A program made the translations under genes and the position numbers. Below, one piece after another: positions 1-9,808 of a DNA stretch of 64,000 nucleotides (the first letter of the stretch is position 1; every line of letters begins with the position of its first letter). Source of the stretch: Candidatus Saccharimonadota bacterium (lineage in GTDB: Bacteria > Patescibacteriota > Saccharimonadia > Saccharimonadales > Saccharimonadaceae); contig JAFRCN010000001.1 in the NCBI GenBank assembly GCA_017404335.1, positions 1 to 64,000 of the forward strand. The letters are read 5' to 3'. A model generated the notes under the pieces. That model was not told the DNA's origin, ran no database searches, and saw only the letters and a program-made list of their open reading frames with translations.

Positions 1-118
1 TTCGGCAATCCCCGGATCATTTCTCGCTGTCAGATCCCCGAGGCTTATCGCAGACTTCTACGGCCTTCATCGGTATTGATTGTCAAGGCATCCACTATCA
101 GTGCCCTTAATTACCTTT
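1..118 (-). rRNA. rrl: 23S ribosomal RNA, 5' end (partial)
   Basis: Read on the minus strand this is the conserved 5' end of bacterial 23S rRNA: GTGGATGCCTTG, then the GATGAAGG and CTGCGATAAGCC blocks in the right order and spacing. The gene runs off the left edge, so only about 118 nt are present. The exact 5' end is estimated. The next 2.6 kb upstream hold the retroelement genes and no 16S gene or tRNA. Confidence 0.95.
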
Positions 119-315
119 TTATGCATTGACTTAACTAGCAAACGAAGTTCAAATTCATCTGCTCGTTCCGTCTTTTAAATCTTTATCGTTTCCAAATTGT
201 TAAACGGAAGAGTCTTAAAGAAGATTTTGAAGTCGTACAAGCGGCCTCAAAAGATTCCTCGCTTTCCTTATCTTTCCGTAGAGGTCGAAAATGTCGACTT
301 GCTTAAACTTCCCCT

Positions 316-423: not shown

Positions 424-461
424 CTCCTTTATACTTTCATTATAATGAAAGTATAAAGGAG
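424..461. promoter_or_regulatory. 38-bp perfect palindrome with -10 and SD of the DGR operon
   Basis: Perfect inverted repeat centred at 442/443, with arms that begin CTCCTTTATACTTTCATTA. The right arm carries the Shine-Dalgarno AGGAG 8 nt before the ATG at 470. The centre contains TATAAT on both strands (441-446 plus, 444-439 minus). It could be an operator and divergent promoter, or an RNA hairpin that hides the SD if transcription starts upstream. Confidence 0.75.
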
Positions 462-469
462 CACAAAGC

Positions 470-1408
470 ATGTCAAATAATAATTCATCAACCAAAGCAC
501 TAACCAGCAAATCATCTGAGCACCCCACCAAAAACCAACATAAATCCCATAAGCGCATCACCGAAAGCCAGCATGAATCCATCAAGCGTGCCATCATCAA
601 GCGCGAGGAGGACAATTACGACAAAATCTACCTCGTCCCCTGCTCGGGCGATCAGGGCTGGTACGAAATCTCGGAGCATTCTGCCCTTATTTACTACTAC
701 GAAGTTATTGTCCCACTAGGACTTTCCACGCGCCTTCATGAGGATACCGTGAGCTTTTACACGCATTATAAATACGGTTCCATCCGTACCAACAGCCCCG
801 CCACGATTAAAGATAATCTCGTAGCTCAAAATCTCTTCGAATCCGAACAAATCGACCGCGATGTCATCATCTATCACCTCGCCAAAACCTTCACCGCAGA
901 AGACATCAACAGTTATGCCAAACAAATTCACACCAGCCGCATCGCCAACGCATCAATCGTCAAAAGCGATAACGCCGCGCCGGAATACTACATCATCGTC
1001 AGTTCGTTCGCCAAAAACATCCTATACGCCTGTTCTAACAAAATGAACGAGATTGAACGCAACAGTTTTGCCAGCAAAATTATCAACTACGCAGTCGATC
1101 TAAGCAGAATATATCTTGAAATAAACTATCTAGACCGACGCGCCAAAGCAAACGACATCATTACTAAATGGGATAAAATTATCGACATCACTTATTACAT
1201 TCTCATCGAGCTGCATTTAATGAGAGGCCTAGGCATCTGGGCACCCGAAGTCATTATCCGCTATAGCGATCAAATACTTCGCGCCCGCGTCATCGCCCGA
1301 AGAGAAATCGCCAAACTCAAAAAAGAAATCAAAATACCACCCCAAAAATCATCAAGCCCCAAATCTACAACTACATCAAACCCTAACAATCAGAAAGGAA
1401 TTCACTAA
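470..1408 (+). CDS. avd: DGR accessory protein: N-terminal unknown domain fused to Avd-like four-helix domain
   Basis: 312 aa. Residues ~175-295 look like the accessory variability determinant (Avd): a helical bundle with FAKNILYACSNKMNEIE, then a helix ending LEINYLDRRAKANDI, a hydrophobic helix and a basic C-terminal helix. Avd binds the DGR reverse transcriptase and its RNA and is needed for mutagenic cDNA synthesis. Ordinary Avd is only about 120 aa. Here ~170 residues precede it, including a polar low-complexity start and a segment with LVPCSGDQGWYEIS that I do not recognise. The stop codon is directly followed by the RT start codon, so the two genes are co-transcribed. The start has AGGAG inside the 38-bp palindrome. 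The Avd assignment rests on pattern and position. Confidence 0.7.
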   Translation: MSNNNSSTKALTSKSSEHPTKNQHKSHKRITESQHESIKRAIIKREEDNYDKIYLVPCSGDQGWYEISEHSALIYYYEVIVPLGLSTRLHEDTVSFYTHYKYGSIRTNSPATIKDNLVAQNLFESEQIDRDVIIYHLAKTFTAEDINSYAKQIHTSRIANASIVKSDNAAPEYYIIVSSFAKNILYACSNKMNEIERNSFASKIINYAVDLSRIYLEINYLDRRAKANDIITKWDKIIDITYYILIELHLMRGLGIWAPEVIIRYSDQILRARVIARREIAKLKKEIKIPPQKSSSPKSTTTSNPNNQKGIH

Positions 1409-2689
1409 ATGTCTAAAGAATCCAAGCTATTCGACATCCCCGCCGCTATTAAAAGCATACAGCATATCGGCATTCGCCAGTGGCTGCTCAAAGAGTACAC
1501 CAAATCCTTCATCGAAGCCAGAAAGGGCAAGCTAAAAACCTTCAACGAACACAAATTCGAGCTCCATTGGCTCGAAAACATCCCTCGCCTTGTCGACACC
1601 ACCCTGGACCGCGCTTTCAAGCCCGGCACCTCCACCACTTTCGTCGTTCACGACCCGAAGGACCGTGAAATCTTCGCCGCCCCCTTCTCCGACCGCAATA
1701 TCCACCACTTCCTCTATCGCGTCTGCGGTGGCTGGTGGGATAGGCAATTTATCGACGACTCCTACAGCTGTCGCCCCAGCCGAGGCACATTCTACGGCAT
1801 TCTCCGGATTTGGGACAAAGCCAAGCGCATCACCAATAACTTTTCCGAAGAAGCCTACATCATCCAAATGGACCTCAGCAACTACTTTATGTCGTTACCG
1901 CGAAAGCGGCTATACGACGCTATCCATCGCGGGCTTTATCGCCAATTTAAAAAATACTTTCACATCCCGGAGGCCTACGAGCTCTATACCATCTGCGATT
2001 TCCTTTGGTATCAAGTCATCATGGATGACCCCGTCACCCACGCCAAACGCCGTGGTTCCATCAAAAACTGGTCCAAACTCGCCCCGGGCAAAAGTCTCCA
2101 TGATCAGCCCTACGGCTACGGCATCGCCATCGGCAATGTTACCTCACAACTTGCCTCGAATATCTACCTAGACAGTTTCGACAAATTCGTCCACTGCCGT
2201 CTAGGTTACAAATACTACGGCCGCTACGTGGACGACTTCTACATCATGGTCAAGAAAAAGGACCTAAAGCGCGCCATTCGCGATATTGAGCTTATGCGCA
2301 GTTTCTTGCTTAACGAAAAGGAGCTCACCCTTCACCCCAAGAAGCTCAGTATTCGCCGTATCGACCAAGGCTTCAAATTCCTCGGCGCTCGCATTTACCC
2401 TCACTGCCTCATCCCCTCCGACCGCCTCCAGAAAAAAATAAAGCGCATCCTACACCAACTTCGCACCGACAAGCTCAGCGACGACACCATTATCTCTTAC
2501 CTAGGTCTCACCAAGAACCTCCATGCCCACAAATTCATGAAGCGCTTTTTCAAAGAATACGACCTCAACTTCGTCCTCTATGAAGAGTTCTTGCATCGCA
2601 CACGCAAAGCAAACGACATCATAAAGGACCTCCGCACTAGCCATTGGAAAGATTACGAAGCCTATTTGAAACAAAATTCCCAACAATAA
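1409..2689 (+). CDS. DGR reverse transcriptase
   Basis: 426 aa. Retron/group-II-type RT fingers and palm: QMDLSNYFMSL (first catalytic Asp region), IGNVTSQLASNIYLD (the I/VGNxTSQ motif typical of DGR RTs, where group II intron RTs have QGxxSP), and the YVDD catalytic box in YYGRYVDDFYIMV. It copies the template-repeat RNA and misincorporates at adenines; the cDNA then replaces the variable repeat of the target gene. There is no maturase or endonuclease domain. It starts right after the Avd-like gene, whose AGAAAGGAA end serves as SD. It converges on the template repeat, which is the opposite of the usual co-directional layout. Confidence 0.95.
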   Translation: MSKESKLFDIPAAIKSIQHIGIRQWLLKEYTKSFIEARKGKLKTFNEHKFELHWLENIPRLVDTTLDRAFKPGTSTTFVVHDPKDREIFAAPFSDRNIHHFLYRVCGGWWDRQFIDDSYSCRPSRGTFYGILRIWDKAKRITNNFSEEAYIIQMDLSNYFMSLPRKRLYDAIHRGLYRQFKKYFHIPEAYELYTICDFLWYQVIMDDPVTHAKRRGSIKNWSKLAPGKSLHDQPYGYGIAIGNVTSQLASNIYLDSFDKFVHCRLGYKYYGRYVDDFYIMVKKKDLKRAIRDIELMRSFLLNEKELTLHPKKLSIRRIDQGFKFLGARIYPHCLIPSDRLQKKIKRILHQLRTDKLSDDTIISYLGLTKNLHAHKFMKRFFKEYDLNFVLYEEFLHRTRKANDIIKDLRTSHWKDYEAYLKQNSQQ

Positions 2690-2700
2690 CTATTAATAAT

Positions 2701-2721
2701 CCCCCCAGCCAAGCTGGGGGG
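2701..2721. terminator. GC-rich hairpin between RT and template repeat
   Basis: Perfect 9-bp stem CCCCCCAGC / GCTGGGGGG with a 3-nt loop. It lies where RT transcription (plus) and TR transcription (inferred minus) meet. Neither side has a strong T-run, so it may be a weak bidirectional terminator or a 3' structure of the TR RNA. Confidence 0.55.
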
Positions 2722-2736
2722 ATGTGGGCATAGGGT

Positions 2737-2949
2737 GTCGCGAAAACGCAAAAGACTCAAGACTACCGAGCCACGCAGCGGACGCTAAAACCGTTCAATC
2801 GATTGTTGCTGTTCGCTGGGTACAATTCAGAACCATTCATGTTCAAGTTGTAGCCATTAGTGCCCGACGATGCGGTACTAGACCACCAGTTCGCATTGCC
2901 GCCGACATTGTACATAGTAGTATCATTGACGTTGCCAAAGCGCGAGAAC
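2737..2949 (-). repeat. DGR template repeat (TR)
   Basis: 213 bp that match the 3' end of the surface gene at 3181-3393 except at 12 positions. On the minus (coding) strand every difference is an A in this copy: nine A-to-T, two A-to-C and one A-to-G. Read in the target frame it contains 13 AAY (Asn) codons, 11 of which are changed in the VR. The last 58 bp (2737-2794) are invariant and GC-rich and probably act as the homing-initiation (IMH-like) segment. The expected RNA is read from the minus strand. Confidence 0.97.
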
Positions 2950-3133
2950 TTTTGACGCCCCCTGCTATTTTTATAACCTTCTTCAGACTTTGGACTCTTT
3001 CGGCAAGCCCAAAGTTCAACCCAGGACTACGATGCCAACTTTCTGACACCGGAGTGAGATTATCCGACTCCCTTGTTATCCACCATCATGCAGTGACAGA
3101 CTTGCTGTGTTTCGATGGCAACCCCACAACCCT

Positions 3134-3162
3134 ATTTTACTACAAAACGCGAAATCTCCCAA
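3134..3162 (-). promoter_or_regulatory. Candidate promoter of the TR RNA
   Basis: Minus strand: -35-like TTGGGA (3157-3162), 17 bp, -10-like TAAAAT (3134-3139). It lies just left of the target gene and would drive a transcript through 2950-3130 into the TR. The region 2950-3180 shows no ORF. The -35 match is weak. Confidence 0.4.
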
Positions 3163-3180
3163 GTTTTTTCAAACAAGGGA

Positions 3181-3393
3181 GTCGCGAAAACGCAAAAGAC
3201 TCAAGACTACCGAGCCACGCAGCGGACGCTAAAACCGTACAATCGACTGTAGCTGTACGCTGGGTACAATTCAGAACCATACATGTACAAGTAGTAGCCA
3301 TTAGTGCCCGACGATGCGGTACTAGACCACCAGTACGCAGAGCCGCCGACATAGTACATAGTAGTATCATTGACGTGGCCAAAGCGCGAGAAC
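3181..3393 (-). repeat. DGR variable repeat (VR)
   Basis: Partner of the TR at a fixed offset of 444 bp. It encodes the last residues of the surface protein. Relative to the template, Asn codons became Tyr eight times, Ser twice and His once. The changed residues lie in the segment from FGHVND to RLYGFSVRCVAR, the ligand-facing end of the C-type-lectin-like fold in known DGR targets. The stop codon (3207-3209) is inside the invariant part. Confidence 0.97.
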
Positions 3394-4757
3394 GCATACG
3401 GGAGCGAAGTCATCTTATTAAATCCACCGCTCGCATAACCCACATTGGTACTACCAGCGAGATCAGTGCCACCCGCAATCCCCGCCTGAGTCAGCATCGC
3501 GTTAAAGTCTGATTGAACCACCGTACCGCTTGGGTTAGTTAGGCCATTAGGCAACCTCCAGCCCTTCGGGCAAATGGAGTTATCCGCCACCGTATACTGA
3601 CTCGAAATCGGTTGCGAATTATTCGATGCGATAGCTGCCGTCCAGTTATAGAAATTACCCACTTGGTAATGCTCACATTGCGCCTGTGTATATCCAGCCG
3701 TCACACAAGCCGATACATTGTCGTAGGCAGTAGTATTTTGCGCGTATAACACCTTTGTGCCAACTTCCGCCATATACGGCTTGTAATTATCATTAGTCCA
3801 CCCCGTCACTGAACTAGGTTGATTGCCCGATACATAATTCGTAACCGTTGCTGGCGTCCCCGTCATTGTCGAACCACTCGGCGTCCAGGTGATCACACTA
3901 TTTCCATCTACGGCATATCCCGAAGCATACGCACCCGAACCATAAGAGTTTAGGTCCGTGTTTTCAGATGTGAGCGCCGTAGTCCCCGAACAACCGATAC
4001 ACAAGTCAAGATTCTGCGTCATCCAGATATTACCATCATCGAGTTTCGATACATAATATTCTTTATTGTCGCGCGTATCGGTCACTTTATAAGTCTCTCC
4101 CGCAAGCATTGTGTCCTTCCAAGTGTCCACGCTCTGCATCGTCAGGTTATCCGATGGCGCCGACCCTGATGGATGAATTAGGACATATTTCACTTTACCA
4201 GTATAAGTCCCCGCTGGCTGAGTCGACGACACATAAGCCGTGTAGGTTACATCCATCGACGAACCCACCGTCGCATCCGTCGAAGAGGTATACTGCGCGA
4301 CCTTTGTGTATTGCGATGGCACAGCATGCGCAGAACCGAAGTTATTTTGAATCGACGGCGCATATGTCCCACTCACCGCCGAAGCTCTCATGTTCCAGTA
4401 CGAGTTTGAACCACTAGTATTCGTCGCGATATCATGCGACGACCCCAAACTATCGCTATGTAGTACCGTAGTCCCATTCGTGTCTTGCCCATAACCTATC
4501 GCGTACACTGCAAACCCGCTCGGGTCGTTACATAACATGTTGAATCGCGAAGTCCCAATTGTATCGCTCTGGCCGTTGTTGATTGTTTTAGAATAAGTAC
4601 CACCGCCGCTCATCGAACAAGAAGTCGCCACCGTTACCGACGCCGTGCTACTCGACGCTGCATCCGCTTTCACGCTCGGCGTCAACTGCGACGCACCCGC
4701 CAGAGTAGTCACTCCAACCGCCGCGCCCAGTACCATTATGTATTTTTTGTTTAGCAT
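3207..4757 (-). CDS. DGR-diversified surface protein, Fib_succ_major domain
   Basis: 516 aa, exported. Residues 1-33 are a signal peptide (basic MLNKKY, hydrophobic core, ends near VKADA). Residues ~40-200 form a domain with a Cys pair (TSCSM, MLCND) ending YTAYVSSTQPAGTYTGKVKY. The same domain forms the proteins at 11650 and 22147. The C-terminal part (~215-516) is a Fibrobacter-succinogenes major paralogous / formylglycine-enzyme-like lectin fold: SVDTWKDTM, DGNIWMTQNLDL, CPKGWRLPNG, WWSSTASSGTNGYYLY, and the closing GFSVRCVAR. The last 60 residues are the VR. It is probably displayed on the cell envelope as a variable binding protein for host or prey contact; there is no visible sortase motif or C-terminal anchor. 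SD GGAGG precedes the ATG. Confidence 0.93.
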   Translation of the reverse strand: MLNKKYIMVLGAAVGVTTLAGASQLTPSVKADAASSSTASVTVATSCSMSGGGTYSKTINNGQSDTIGTSRFNMLCNDPSGFAVYAIGYGQDTNGTTVLHSDSLGSSHDIATNTSGSNSYWNMRASAVSGTYAPSIQNNFGSAHAVPSQYTKVAQYTSSTDATVGSSMDVTYTAYVSSTQPAGTYTGKVKYVLIHPSGSAPSDNLTMQSVDTWKDTMLAGETYKVTDTRDNKEYYVSKLDDGNIWMTQNLDLCIGCSGTTALTSENTDLNSYGSGAYASGYAVDGNSVITWTPSGSTMTGTPATVTNYVSGNQPSSVTGWTNDNYKPYMAEVGTKVLYAQNTTAYDNVSACVTAGYTQAQCEHYQVGNFYNWTAAIASNNSQPISSQYTVADNSICPKGWRLPNGLTNPSGTVVQSDFNAMLTQAGIAGGTDLAGSTNVGYASGGFNKMTSLPYAFSRFGHVNDTTMYYVGGSAYWWSSTASSGTNGYYLYMYGSELYPAYSYSRLYGFSVRCVAR

Positions 4758-5732: not shown

Positions 5733-5861
5733 ATTCCTCCACTATATATTATATACAATATTATACCACACCCCCTCCATCCCGCCATTTTTTTTCAACT
5801 GCTTTTCATTTTATGTCAGAAAAAAACTAACAATCGTCATTAGAGTAATTTCGTCCAACCG

Positions 5862-5960
5862 TGCAAGCACATTGCAAGCACATTTCCTCTGTATTTTTTC
5901 TTATTTCGTCCAACCGTGCAAGCACACTACAAGCACATTGCAAGCATTCTACAAGCACAT
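5862..5960. repeat. Left phased array of 11-bp repeats (TGCAAGCACAT)
   Basis: Nine 11-bp slots: two TGCAAGCACAT units (5862-5883), a 33-bp gap equal to three slots (5884-5916), then four units with small changes (5917-5960). The gap holds CTCTGTA followed by a T-rich stretch and ends TCGTCCAACCG, which also precedes the first unit. A matching array lies on the other side of the gene at 5986. Confidence 0.85.
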
Positions 5961-7461: not shown

Positions 7462-7491
7462 AGCTTGATTATATCACGAACAATTTAACTT

Positions 7492-7590
7492 TGCAAGCAC
7501 ATTGCAAGCACCCTGCAAGCACATTTACTCTGTAATTTTCCCCTCCCCGCCCATTTTTGCAAGCATCCTGCAAGCACATTGCAAGCAAAA
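7492..7590. repeat. Right phased array of 11-bp repeats (TGCAAGCACAT)
   Basis: Nine 11-bp slots again: three units (7492-7524), a 33-bp gap (7525-7557) with CTCTGTA then a pyrimidine-rich stretch, then three units (7558-7590, the last degenerate). Unit orientation, total length (99 bp) and gap length are the same as in the left array. Confidence 0.85.
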
Positions 7591-8040: not shown

Positions 8041-8043
8041 GAT

Positions 8044-8078
8044 ATGTTACGAAAACTCCGAGTTTTCGTAACAAATTC
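8044..8078. repeat. Left 35-bp palindromic direct repeat of the AbiE cassette
   Basis: Identical over 35 bp to 9774-9808, and different on the very next base at both ends. The inner 27 bp (8046-8072) form a perfect palindrome: GTTACGAAAACTC, one central base, GAGTTTTCGTAAC. It ends on the first base of the abiEii stop codon. Confidence 0.9.
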
Positions 8079-9103
8079 TACTTCAATCCATTTACTTCTT
8101 TCTCAAGTTTTGCTATTTCATCAGTTATCGTATTGAAATCTGGATATTCGCCATAAAACATCGATTGCATCGCATCGTAGTCTTTGCGCAAAACCTCTTC
8201 ATTGTCCGCAGATGGCACAAGCCTCAATGTCCCCGGCTTAGCCATATCATATCTCGCCCAGCCTGCATGATAAAACTTGTTTTTGAACTCGGCAACATCT
8301 TTCAATAACTGTATATTATCCAGCGCCGACTTCTTGAACGGTGATTTCGCCATACAATACATATCGTAGTAATGTCTAGAATATCTTTGCGGGGTACGAT
8401 TCCCGTCCGGTCTATGCGCCTCGGCATGCAAAATAGTTGCTTTCTCCCAAAAACTTCTCTCCGCAGTAGTTGTCAAGATAACCGTTCCTACCCCCGCAAA
8501 AAGACCGGAATAACATTCTGCTACATACGGCGTAATTAATGCGTTTTGAGTTGGCGTCCAAGCTGCAAGAGGGCCAATTTCCAGACGAATAGCCGGCGTC
8601 AACGCAAAATCTCTGAAAATACTTGGATAGTGAAACAGCACAGTCAGCTCACCATTTTCTTCATACAAAGAAAACTTGCTACTTTTTGGCAAAATGCCAC
8701 CGATATCTTCCGAAATCTTTGGAATAAAGTCATCTGCCAAAAATTTCCTAAACTTCTCCGTGCATTCGGCCTTAAATTTCTCCCGTTGATTATTACTAGA
8801 TAATCCCAATGGGTAATCCTTTGCATATCCCAAGACTCGCCAATCCAAAATCAAGTCCACATCTTCGGAGAATCTCTTAATCAAGTGATATGCTTTCGAA
8901 AGGCTCGTCCCGCCCTTAAATACCAAATGATCTCTCCACGGGCTTTCATGAAAAAGATAGTCCAGAATAAAACAAACCCAAAAATCTTTCTCCACAATTC
9001 CCTCAGACATCCCAATTTTTGCAGCAGTATTACGAAATAACGCTTCGCGATCCTTCGCTGATAATTTAGCAACTTTACGCATGGCTTTTATCGCTACTCC
9101 CAT
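8078..9103 (-). CDS. abiEii: AbiEii/AbiGii-type nucleotidyltransferase toxin
   Basis: 341 aa. Nucleotidyltransferase-fold toxin with the family motifs in order: IVEKDFWVCFILDYLF, HLVFKGGTSLSKAY (GGTS loop) and RFSEDVDLIL (SxDxD metal site). Later TTTAERSFWEKATILHAEAH and SRHYYDMYCM are also typical of AbiEii. AbiEii toxins transfer nucleotides, in known cases to tRNA 3' ends, and arrest growth until neutralised by AbiEi. The start is taken at 9103, overlapping abiEi by 29 bp; ATG at 9082 (MRKVAKLS) is an alternative. The pair is known as an abortive-infection or type IV toxin-antitoxin system. Confidence 0.92.
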   Translation of the reverse strand: MGVAIKAMRKVAKLSAKDREALFRNTAAKIGMSEGIVEKDFWVCFILDYLFHESPWRDHLVFKGGTSLSKAYHLIKRFSEDVDLILDWRVLGYAKDYPLGLSSNNQREKFKAECTEKFRKFLADDFIPKISEDIGGILPKSSKFSLYEENGELTVLFHYPSIFRDFALTPAIRLEIGPLAAWTPTQNALITPYVAECYSGLFAGVGTVILTTTAERSFWEKATILHAEAHRPDGNRTPQRYSRHYYDMYCMAKSPFKKSALDNIQLLKDVAEFKNKFYHAGWARYDMAKPGTLRLVPSADNEEVLRKDYDAMQSMFYGEYPDFNTITDEIAKLEKEVNGLK

Positions 9104-9722
9104 CTATGACATCCGCCGACGCAATTTCCTTGAGACAATTATAAATCCAAAGCGGCAAATTATTCCCCTCTGCTAACATTTTTTCACGCTCCGCTTGGTC
9201 AAAGTGCGCCGCAAAGTTCGCAATCATTTCTTTCGTAATGCGCTCTTGTCCTATAGCACGCAGAGCCTGCGCTGTCATAATGGTCTTCGGAGAAAGCGCA
9301 GTAAATTCGCGGTCTTCTCTATGAGTGAAAATAAGTTTTGCGTTTTTTAATTCATATTCTCTAGATGGTCCAGAACTGATAAATTCCCAGGTATTAGGAA
9401 CCTGCGTAGAAATCCCCAAATAGTTCAATGCGGTTTCGCCACTTGGCGCAATCATCCAGCCATTTTTCTCAGCAAGGGCCTTGGCAACCTTTTGCGGATT
9501 TGGCTCGACCAACTCACCTAACATAGAATTATAAACAGGCTTTTCGTAAACACCTCTGACCATTCTGCGTATTAGTCCAGATGATTCCAAGCGTGCCAGA
9601 ATTGCCTTTATCGAATCATAATCACCGAAATCCAAAAATTTTTGGATATAAAAAATCTCACCCTCCGGATACGAGTTAATTCTATCCATGATTTTTTTGG
9701 TAATATCTGTATTTTCTTGCAT
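9075..9722 (-). CDS. abiEi: AbiEi-like antitoxin (DUF6088 type)
   Basis: 215 aa from the ATG at 9722 (MQENTDITKK), chosen because AAAGGA lies 6 nt upstream; a longer frame to 9749 begins directly at the -10. The N-terminal winged helix (IFYIQKFLDFGDYDSIKAIL, GLIRRMVRGVYEKP) is a DNA-binding antitoxin domain; the C-terminal half (GETALNYLG, LIFTHREDREFTALSP) matches the AbiEi C-terminal domain. It neutralises the AbiEii product and probably represses this promoter (TATAAT at 9750-9755 on minus). Confidence 0.85.
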   Translation of the reverse strand: MQENTDITKKIMDRINSYPEGEIFYIQKFLDFGDYDSIKAILARLESSGLIRRMVRGVYEKPVYNSMLGELVEPNPQKVAKALAEKNGWMIAPSGETALNYLGISTQVPNTWEFISSGPSREYELKNAKLIFTHREDREFTALSPKTIMTAQALRAIGQERITKEMIANFAAHFDQAEREKMLAEGNNLPLWIYNCLKEIASADVIDGSSDKSHA

Positions 9723-9773
9723 AATTAATCCTTTTGTATGACTAAACATATTATAACATATTTTTTAACATAA

Positions 9774-9808
9774 ATGTTACGAAAACTCCGAGTTTTCGTA
9801 ACAAATTC
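9774..9808. repeat. Right 35-bp palindromic direct repeat of the AbiE cassette
   Basis: Exact copy of 8044-8078, 1730 bp away, just upstream of the abiE promoter. Nothing else in the window contains this sequence. Confidence 0.9.

Follow-up and report, generated by a model that had tools for sequence, protein, structure and literature searches.

How does a diversity-generating retroelement (DGR) rewrite its variable repeat (VR) but never its template repeat (TR), and how does its cDNA find the VR? This was still described as incompletely understood in 2026 (PMC12875486), although the directionality determinant IMH has long been known (PMC3240598 and work cited there). The question is raised anew by a locus at the start of a 64,000-nt stretch of DNA (positions 1 to 64,000 of contig JAFRCN010000001.1, assembly GCA_017404335.1; hereafter, the window) from a Candidatus Saccharimonadota bacterium, a tiny bacterium of a host-dependent lineage. 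Here the template RNA appears to be a separate transcript that faces the reverse transcriptase (RT) gene, and its front part is complementary to the boundary of the gene to be rewritten and less so to that of its own template. This offers a testable explanation for how such cassettes may find their target.

Results

Template and variable repeats

As listed in Table 1, the locus comprises an accessory gene and an RT gene on the plus strand, and a TR, a VR and a target gene on the minus strand. With a constant offset of 444, TR and VR differ at 12 positions, and all 12 are A in the TR when read on the minus strand (A>T 9, A>C 2, A>G 1). Since the TR holds 47 A in 213 nt, the probability of 12 out of 12 falling at A by chance is 3.9e-9. 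Eleven codons change, all of them AAY in the TR; eight become Tyr and the others Ser, Ser and His, while two of the 13 AAY codons are unchanged. A further A/T difference sits at the very edge (2736/3180), exactly where the leader described below matches VR and not TR. TR and VR are the only two copies in the genome, and a search for remote VRs of this TR found none.

The first-pass annotation, which had reported 12 of 12 substitutions at template adenines and an RT inverted relative to TR and target, was therefore correct in its observation. It had also taken the pattern as direct evidence of an active or recently active DGR. Twelve changes at A and none elsewhere do argue for recent retrohoming, albeit on the evidence of sequence alone. 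The abundance of Tyr is what a known DGR RT produces from AAC (PMC12875486), so that it does not constitute separate evidence of selection.

Table 1. Coordinates of the features discussed, within the 64,000-nt window
Position	Strand	Feature	Evidence
1..120	-	5' end of a 23S rRNA gene at the contig edge	no 16S found in the window
424..461		Perfect 38-bp palindrome just upstream of the accessory gene; possible operator	single copy in the genome
470..1408	+	Accessory protein, 312 aa: extra N-terminal alpha/beta domain (res 30-161) and C-terminal four-helix Avd-like bundle (res 171-288), both predicted	AlphaFold pLDDT 88; Foldseek to BPP-1 Avd 4dwl_D TMt 0.80, rmsd 2.6, to Avd in DGR RNP 8ub7_E TMt 0.76, and to S23-family bundles 2gsc/2rld, all E > 0.02; no Pfam hit; homologues upstream of RT in most relatives
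1409..2689	+	DGR reverse transcriptase, 426 aa, TSQ and YVDD motifs	PF00078; PHROG reverse transcriptase 2.9e-64; best PDB hit DGR RT 8ub7_A, 1.2e-23; 26% identity to BPP-1 Brt with TSQ/YxDD aligned
2701..2722	-	GC-rich perfect hairpin between TR 3' end and RT stop; likely end of TR RNA	folds as a strong hairpin; not called by a simple terminator scan, its tail being A/T-rich rather than a T run
2737..2949	-	Template repeat (TR)	comparison with VR
2970..3072	-	Structured leader core: P1 3063-3057/2979-2973, P2 3055-3047/3034-3026, P3 3015-3005/2997-2987	covariance model built without the window, E=5e-4; covariation for P1 and P3; P2 assigned by eye
3065..3077	-	Putative guide segment AACAAGGGAGTCG, reverse complement of the VR 3' boundary	13-nt perfect match to VR, at most 7 anywhere in the leader to TR; sequence present exactly twice in the genome
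3134..3162	-	Predicted TR promoter TTGGGA-17-TAAAAT	9 of 12 consensus matches, weak alone; position conserved in relatives
3156..3181	-	DNA hairpin 3' of VR with GAAA loop (fits GRNA), overlapping the guide site	hairpin type described in PMC3240598; two internal mismatches in the stem; not consistently present in relatives
3172..3184	-	Putative guide target site CGACTCCCTTGTT at the VR 3' boundary (IMH)	match to the guide segment
3181..3393	-	Variable repeat (VR), spanning the target's C-terminus, stop codon and about 26 nt beyond	comparison with TR
3207..4757	-	Target protein, 516 aa, signal-like N-terminus, C-terminal FISUMP domain	TIGR02145 60 bits over a cut-off of 41.65; PF09603 just below cut-off
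5857..5958 and 7487..7588		Arrays of an 11-nt TGCAAGCAC-type repeat on both sides of a Schlafen AlbA_2 gene
8042..9808		AbiEii toxin gene and a DUF6088 partner flanked by two identical 35-nt copies of a palindromic sequence

The RT motifs, with the SQ dipeptide in motif 4 and YxDD, and the A-only differences identify the element as a DGR. The assignment of the accessory protein to Avd rests on structural similarity only, as no sequence-family hit was obtained; a family search over its homologues found nothing for the additional N-terminal domain, for which no fold match was found either. In DGRs the VR lies at the 3' end of a target ORF with a C-type-lectin-like domain; here the VR covers the C-terminus of a FISUMP-domain protein. 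We considered whether the palindrome upstream of the accessory gene might be an operator shared among the DGRs of this genome, but no other copy was found in the genome, even when allowing 3 mismatches.

Arrangement across the clade

The genome (686 kb in 6 contigs, 96% complete; named relatives are Candidatus Saccharibacteria from ruminant guts) contains four RTs of this kind (contig and position: C5:1409, C5:71322, C1:15250 and C2:2212), each with its own TR/VR, as well as further FISUMP-domain loci beyond the four targets. At least one such RT is found in 91 of 174 genomes of the genus.

When a TR/VR finder was run on about 90 loci, TR was placed antisense to the RT, with its RNA 3' end at the RT stop (gap mostly -60 to +100 nt), in about 60 of them. 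In an RT tree, all 57 inverted-TR rows fell in one 76-row clade (100/100 support), with same-strand TRs outside; the clade also contained two loci (L053 and L161 in our numbering) in which TR and VR have swapped places around avd-RT, as if the block had inverted between these inverted repeats. The target lies upstream on the RT strand in 45 loci and downstream on the TR strand, as in the window, in 12, and the latter state changed 9-11 times. So the convergence of TR and RT is the stable feature, whereas the target moves. In one further locus (L142, 2400-3240) the template unit is duplicated in tandem: there are two leader hits, the second followed by an 81-nt TR remnant, with a TATAAT between the units.

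A probable separate template RNA with a structured leader

The first-pass annotation had also maintained that the TR RNA must come from its own minus-strand promoter and end against the RT 3' end. A dedicated promoter is supported by the element predicted in the window and by the occurrence of TATAAT 165-255 nt upstream of TR, on the TR strand, in 27 of 60 relatives (2.5 expected, at most 6 in 200 shuffles). However, 'must' is too strong, since in this locus the target gene lies upstream on the same strand and read-through is possible. Overall, that interpretation is supported only in part: DGR identity, inverted RT and recent activity fit, but it did not include the structured leader, the target-matching segment, the clade-wide fixation of the arrangement or the presence of four DGRs in one genome. 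A terminator role for the hairpin that follows TR was not confirmed by the terminator scan.

Between promoter and TR lies a conserved leader of ~180 nt. A MAFFT alignment of all leaders proved too divergent, and we therefore proceeded by subfamily and with covariance models. On a nine-sequence alignment that left out the window, the two best helices found mechanically were P3 and P1, and all 16 pairs showed changes on both sides. A covariance model built from these nine sequences found the window leader as its only hit in 64 kb. After one round of growth, the model aligned 25 leaders with 156 double-change cells, against 54 in shuffles and far fewer in slid versions, although this larger alignment was fitted to the structure. 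An earlier complementarity test for P1 had given only a moderate result (61 of 20,000 permutations), several of its automatically placed anchors being wrong, and was superseded by these analyses. Minimum-energy folding of the window leader alone yielded P3 but not P1 or P2 (z = -1.2), so the support for the fold is comparative. In most loci, the 3' side of TR has no room for a structured spacer.

A leader segment complementary to the target

Directly before P1, the leader carries a segment of 9-15 nt (13 nt in the window) that is the reverse complement of the VR 3' boundary. Over 59 loci, the complement to the locus's own VR was ≥9 nt in 27 and ≥11 nt in 19, while the 3' flank gave 2 and 0; the VRs of other loci reached ≥9 nt in 2.6% of cases. 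About half of the loci, including two of the four DGRs in this genome, showed no such segment above 8 nt. At positions next to the shared core where VR and TR differ, the leader fits VR 60 times and TR 6 times.

In the discovery set, no permutation out of 20,000 reached the own-pair value. The same prediction, written down beforehand, was tested on 20 unseen loci: the own-pair mean was 7.85 against 6.37, again none of 20,000 permutations reached it, and VR beat TR 12 to 3. The excess of VR over TR matches may partly reflect our choosing the longest match, though the held-out loci agree. Sixteen of the 20 had the antisense TR; the other four, from other families, have TR on the RT strand downstream of RT, and their guide is still 5' of TR, so the 5' position is not tied to the inversion.

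In BPP-1, the spacer segment 48-56, AGGTGGTCA, is complementary to IMH (TGACCACCT) and not to IMH*. The BPP-1 primer is A56, the last base of this segment. Across 54 BPP-1-like viral loci, the spacer has GTGGTCA in 49, VR has TGACCAC in 46, and TR has it in none. Because the pairing is invariant, no covariation supports it, and five variant VRs (loci L192, L198, L233, L221 and L231) are not compensated by the spacer. Among 13 diverse phage DGRs, only BPP-1 and Bacteroides phage Versailles passed the spacer-VR test.

Discussion

We interpret the locus as a DGR with a rearranged, self-standing template RNA, a reading we hold with moderate confidence. The sequence itself establishes the layout (avd-RT on the plus strand; a TR RNA encoded on the minus strand, behind its own predicted promoter, as leader, TR and hairpin) and the complementarity of the 13-nt segment to the target's coding strand at the IMH and, less so, to the TR's own boundary, IMH*. 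What these parts do is inferred from that complementarity and from the phage prototype. In BPP-1, an internal spacer adenine primes cDNA within IMH* (PMC12875486), and the 21-bp part of IMH, with five mismatches to TR, sets the direction of transfer (PMC3240598). In our view, the Avd-RT complex would bind the leader fold, and the 3' end of the guide, which often pairs also with IMH*, would prime mutagenic cDNA synthesis on TR. The resulting guide-cDNA chimera, perfectly complementary to VR but not to TR, would then anneal to the VR strand and be fixed by repair or replication. The same RNA segment would thereby act as primer and guide, giving both target choice and one-way flow from TR to VR, while the target gene, a surface-type FISUMP protein, would gain variants at 11 or more AAY codons.

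A broader reading, which we consider somewhat more likely than not, is that DGR template RNAs carry a readable guide: the priming segment would be the reverse complement of the target's IMH and not of IMH*, so that RNA-target base pairing would set both target choice and one-way information flow, and the guide may sit on either side of TR (3' in the BPP-1 type, 5' in Saccharibacteria). Such a guide would explain directionality as well as target finding, and would predict targets from sequence alone, which is directly testable in the reconstituted E. coli system; for the Nanoarchaeota IMH/IMH* pair TGGGGT/TGGAAT (PMC4372165), for instance, it predicts ACCCCA in the template RNA. It would also show that the template RNA can be permuted and uncoupled from the RT transcript, in a lineage where such RTs are widespread in one genus.

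Among the alternatives, the one that survives best, though we consider it unlikely, is that the leader segment only pairs within the RNA with the TR 3' end to self-prime cDNA synthesis, like the BPP-1 RNA homoduplex, its match to VR being a by-product of the resemblance between IMH and IMH*. A core of 6-10 nt next to the fold is indeed shared with TR in many loci, and an internal spacer nucleotide is the known primer in BPP-1. However, the discriminating positions favor VR 60:6 and extend past the end of TR/VR homology, where TR cannot be the source; in the window, pairing with TR is interrupted; and the TRs of the BPP-1 type never carry the spacer complement, whereas most VRs do.

It is more doubtful that the TR RNA is simply a read-through product of the target transcript. 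In the window VR ends 231 bp before TR on the same strand and the promoter match is modest, but in 45 of 57 inverted loci the target is elsewhere on the other strand, yet the promoter-like element keeps its place. An antisense action of the leader on the target mRNA, whose 3' end past the stop codon carries the complementary site, appears very unlikely: target and TR RNA can be co-expressed, but the site sits at the TR/VR boundary in locus after locus (VR positions -7 to -12), which regulation does not require, and the same relation occurs in phage IMH known to direct homing. Finally, that this is an ordinary inverted DGR, with leader fold and complementarity due to chance or shared ancestry, is contradicted by the compensatory changes in all pairs and by the locus-specific guide-VR matching in two sets.

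Comparison with known systems

Inverted DGRs were reported in 2012 and again in 2019 (PMC3521204, PMC6642488), and hence the inverted RT alone is not new. What we regard as new is the fixation, across a clade of about 57 loci, of a TR antisense to and abutting the RT 3' end while the target moves; the 5' leader with its predicted promoter and covarying multi-helix RNA; and the target-matching segment. Neither the permuted leader nor this segment was found in the papers we examined, although prior notice of spacer-IMH complementarity in the primary literature on BPP-1 priming (Naorem 2017, Handa 2018 and a later RNP structure paper), which lay outside that survey, cannot be excluded.

The Bordetella phage BPP-1 DGR (avd-TR-spacer-brt, mtd VR) shares with the present element the RT with TSQ/YxDD, the Avd-type bundle, the A-only changes, the IMH boundary and an RNA segment complementary to IMH more than to IMH*. 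The described DGR target hairpin has a 7-10 bp GC-rich stem and a GRNA loop just 3' of VR; the hairpin in the window has a fitting GAAA loop, but its stem has two internal mismatches and it is not consistently present in relatives. In BPP-1, however, TR lies on the RT strand and the structured priming spacer is 3' of TR, between TR and RT, while here TR is antisense, 43-47 nt from the RT stop, and the structured segment with the guide is 5' of TR. Moreover, the guide is longer here (13 vs 9 nt) and varies together with VR between loci, and Avd carries an extra N-terminal domain.

In the inverted DGRs of Shewanella, Vibrio and Photobacterium (Schillinger 2012, Group 4) and in the G5 cassette of Yan 2019, as in the window, the RT is on one strand and TR, VR and target are on the other. 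In most relatives of the window, by contrast, the target is on the RT strand and only TR is inverted, i.e., TR and VR are on opposite strands. The Patescibacteria DGRs (clade 2 of Roux 2021) are likewise cell-encoded CPR elements, and we found no description of their template RNA architecture.

Two further systems resemble the proposed mechanism only in the way they work. In group II introns, EBS-IBS pairing brings an RNA segment onto the target strand at the insertion boundary, as proposed for the guide, but there is neither ribozyme nor splicing here. In the retron msr-msd RNA, a structured 5' part primes the copying of the 3' part, much as we suppose the leader to do for TR.
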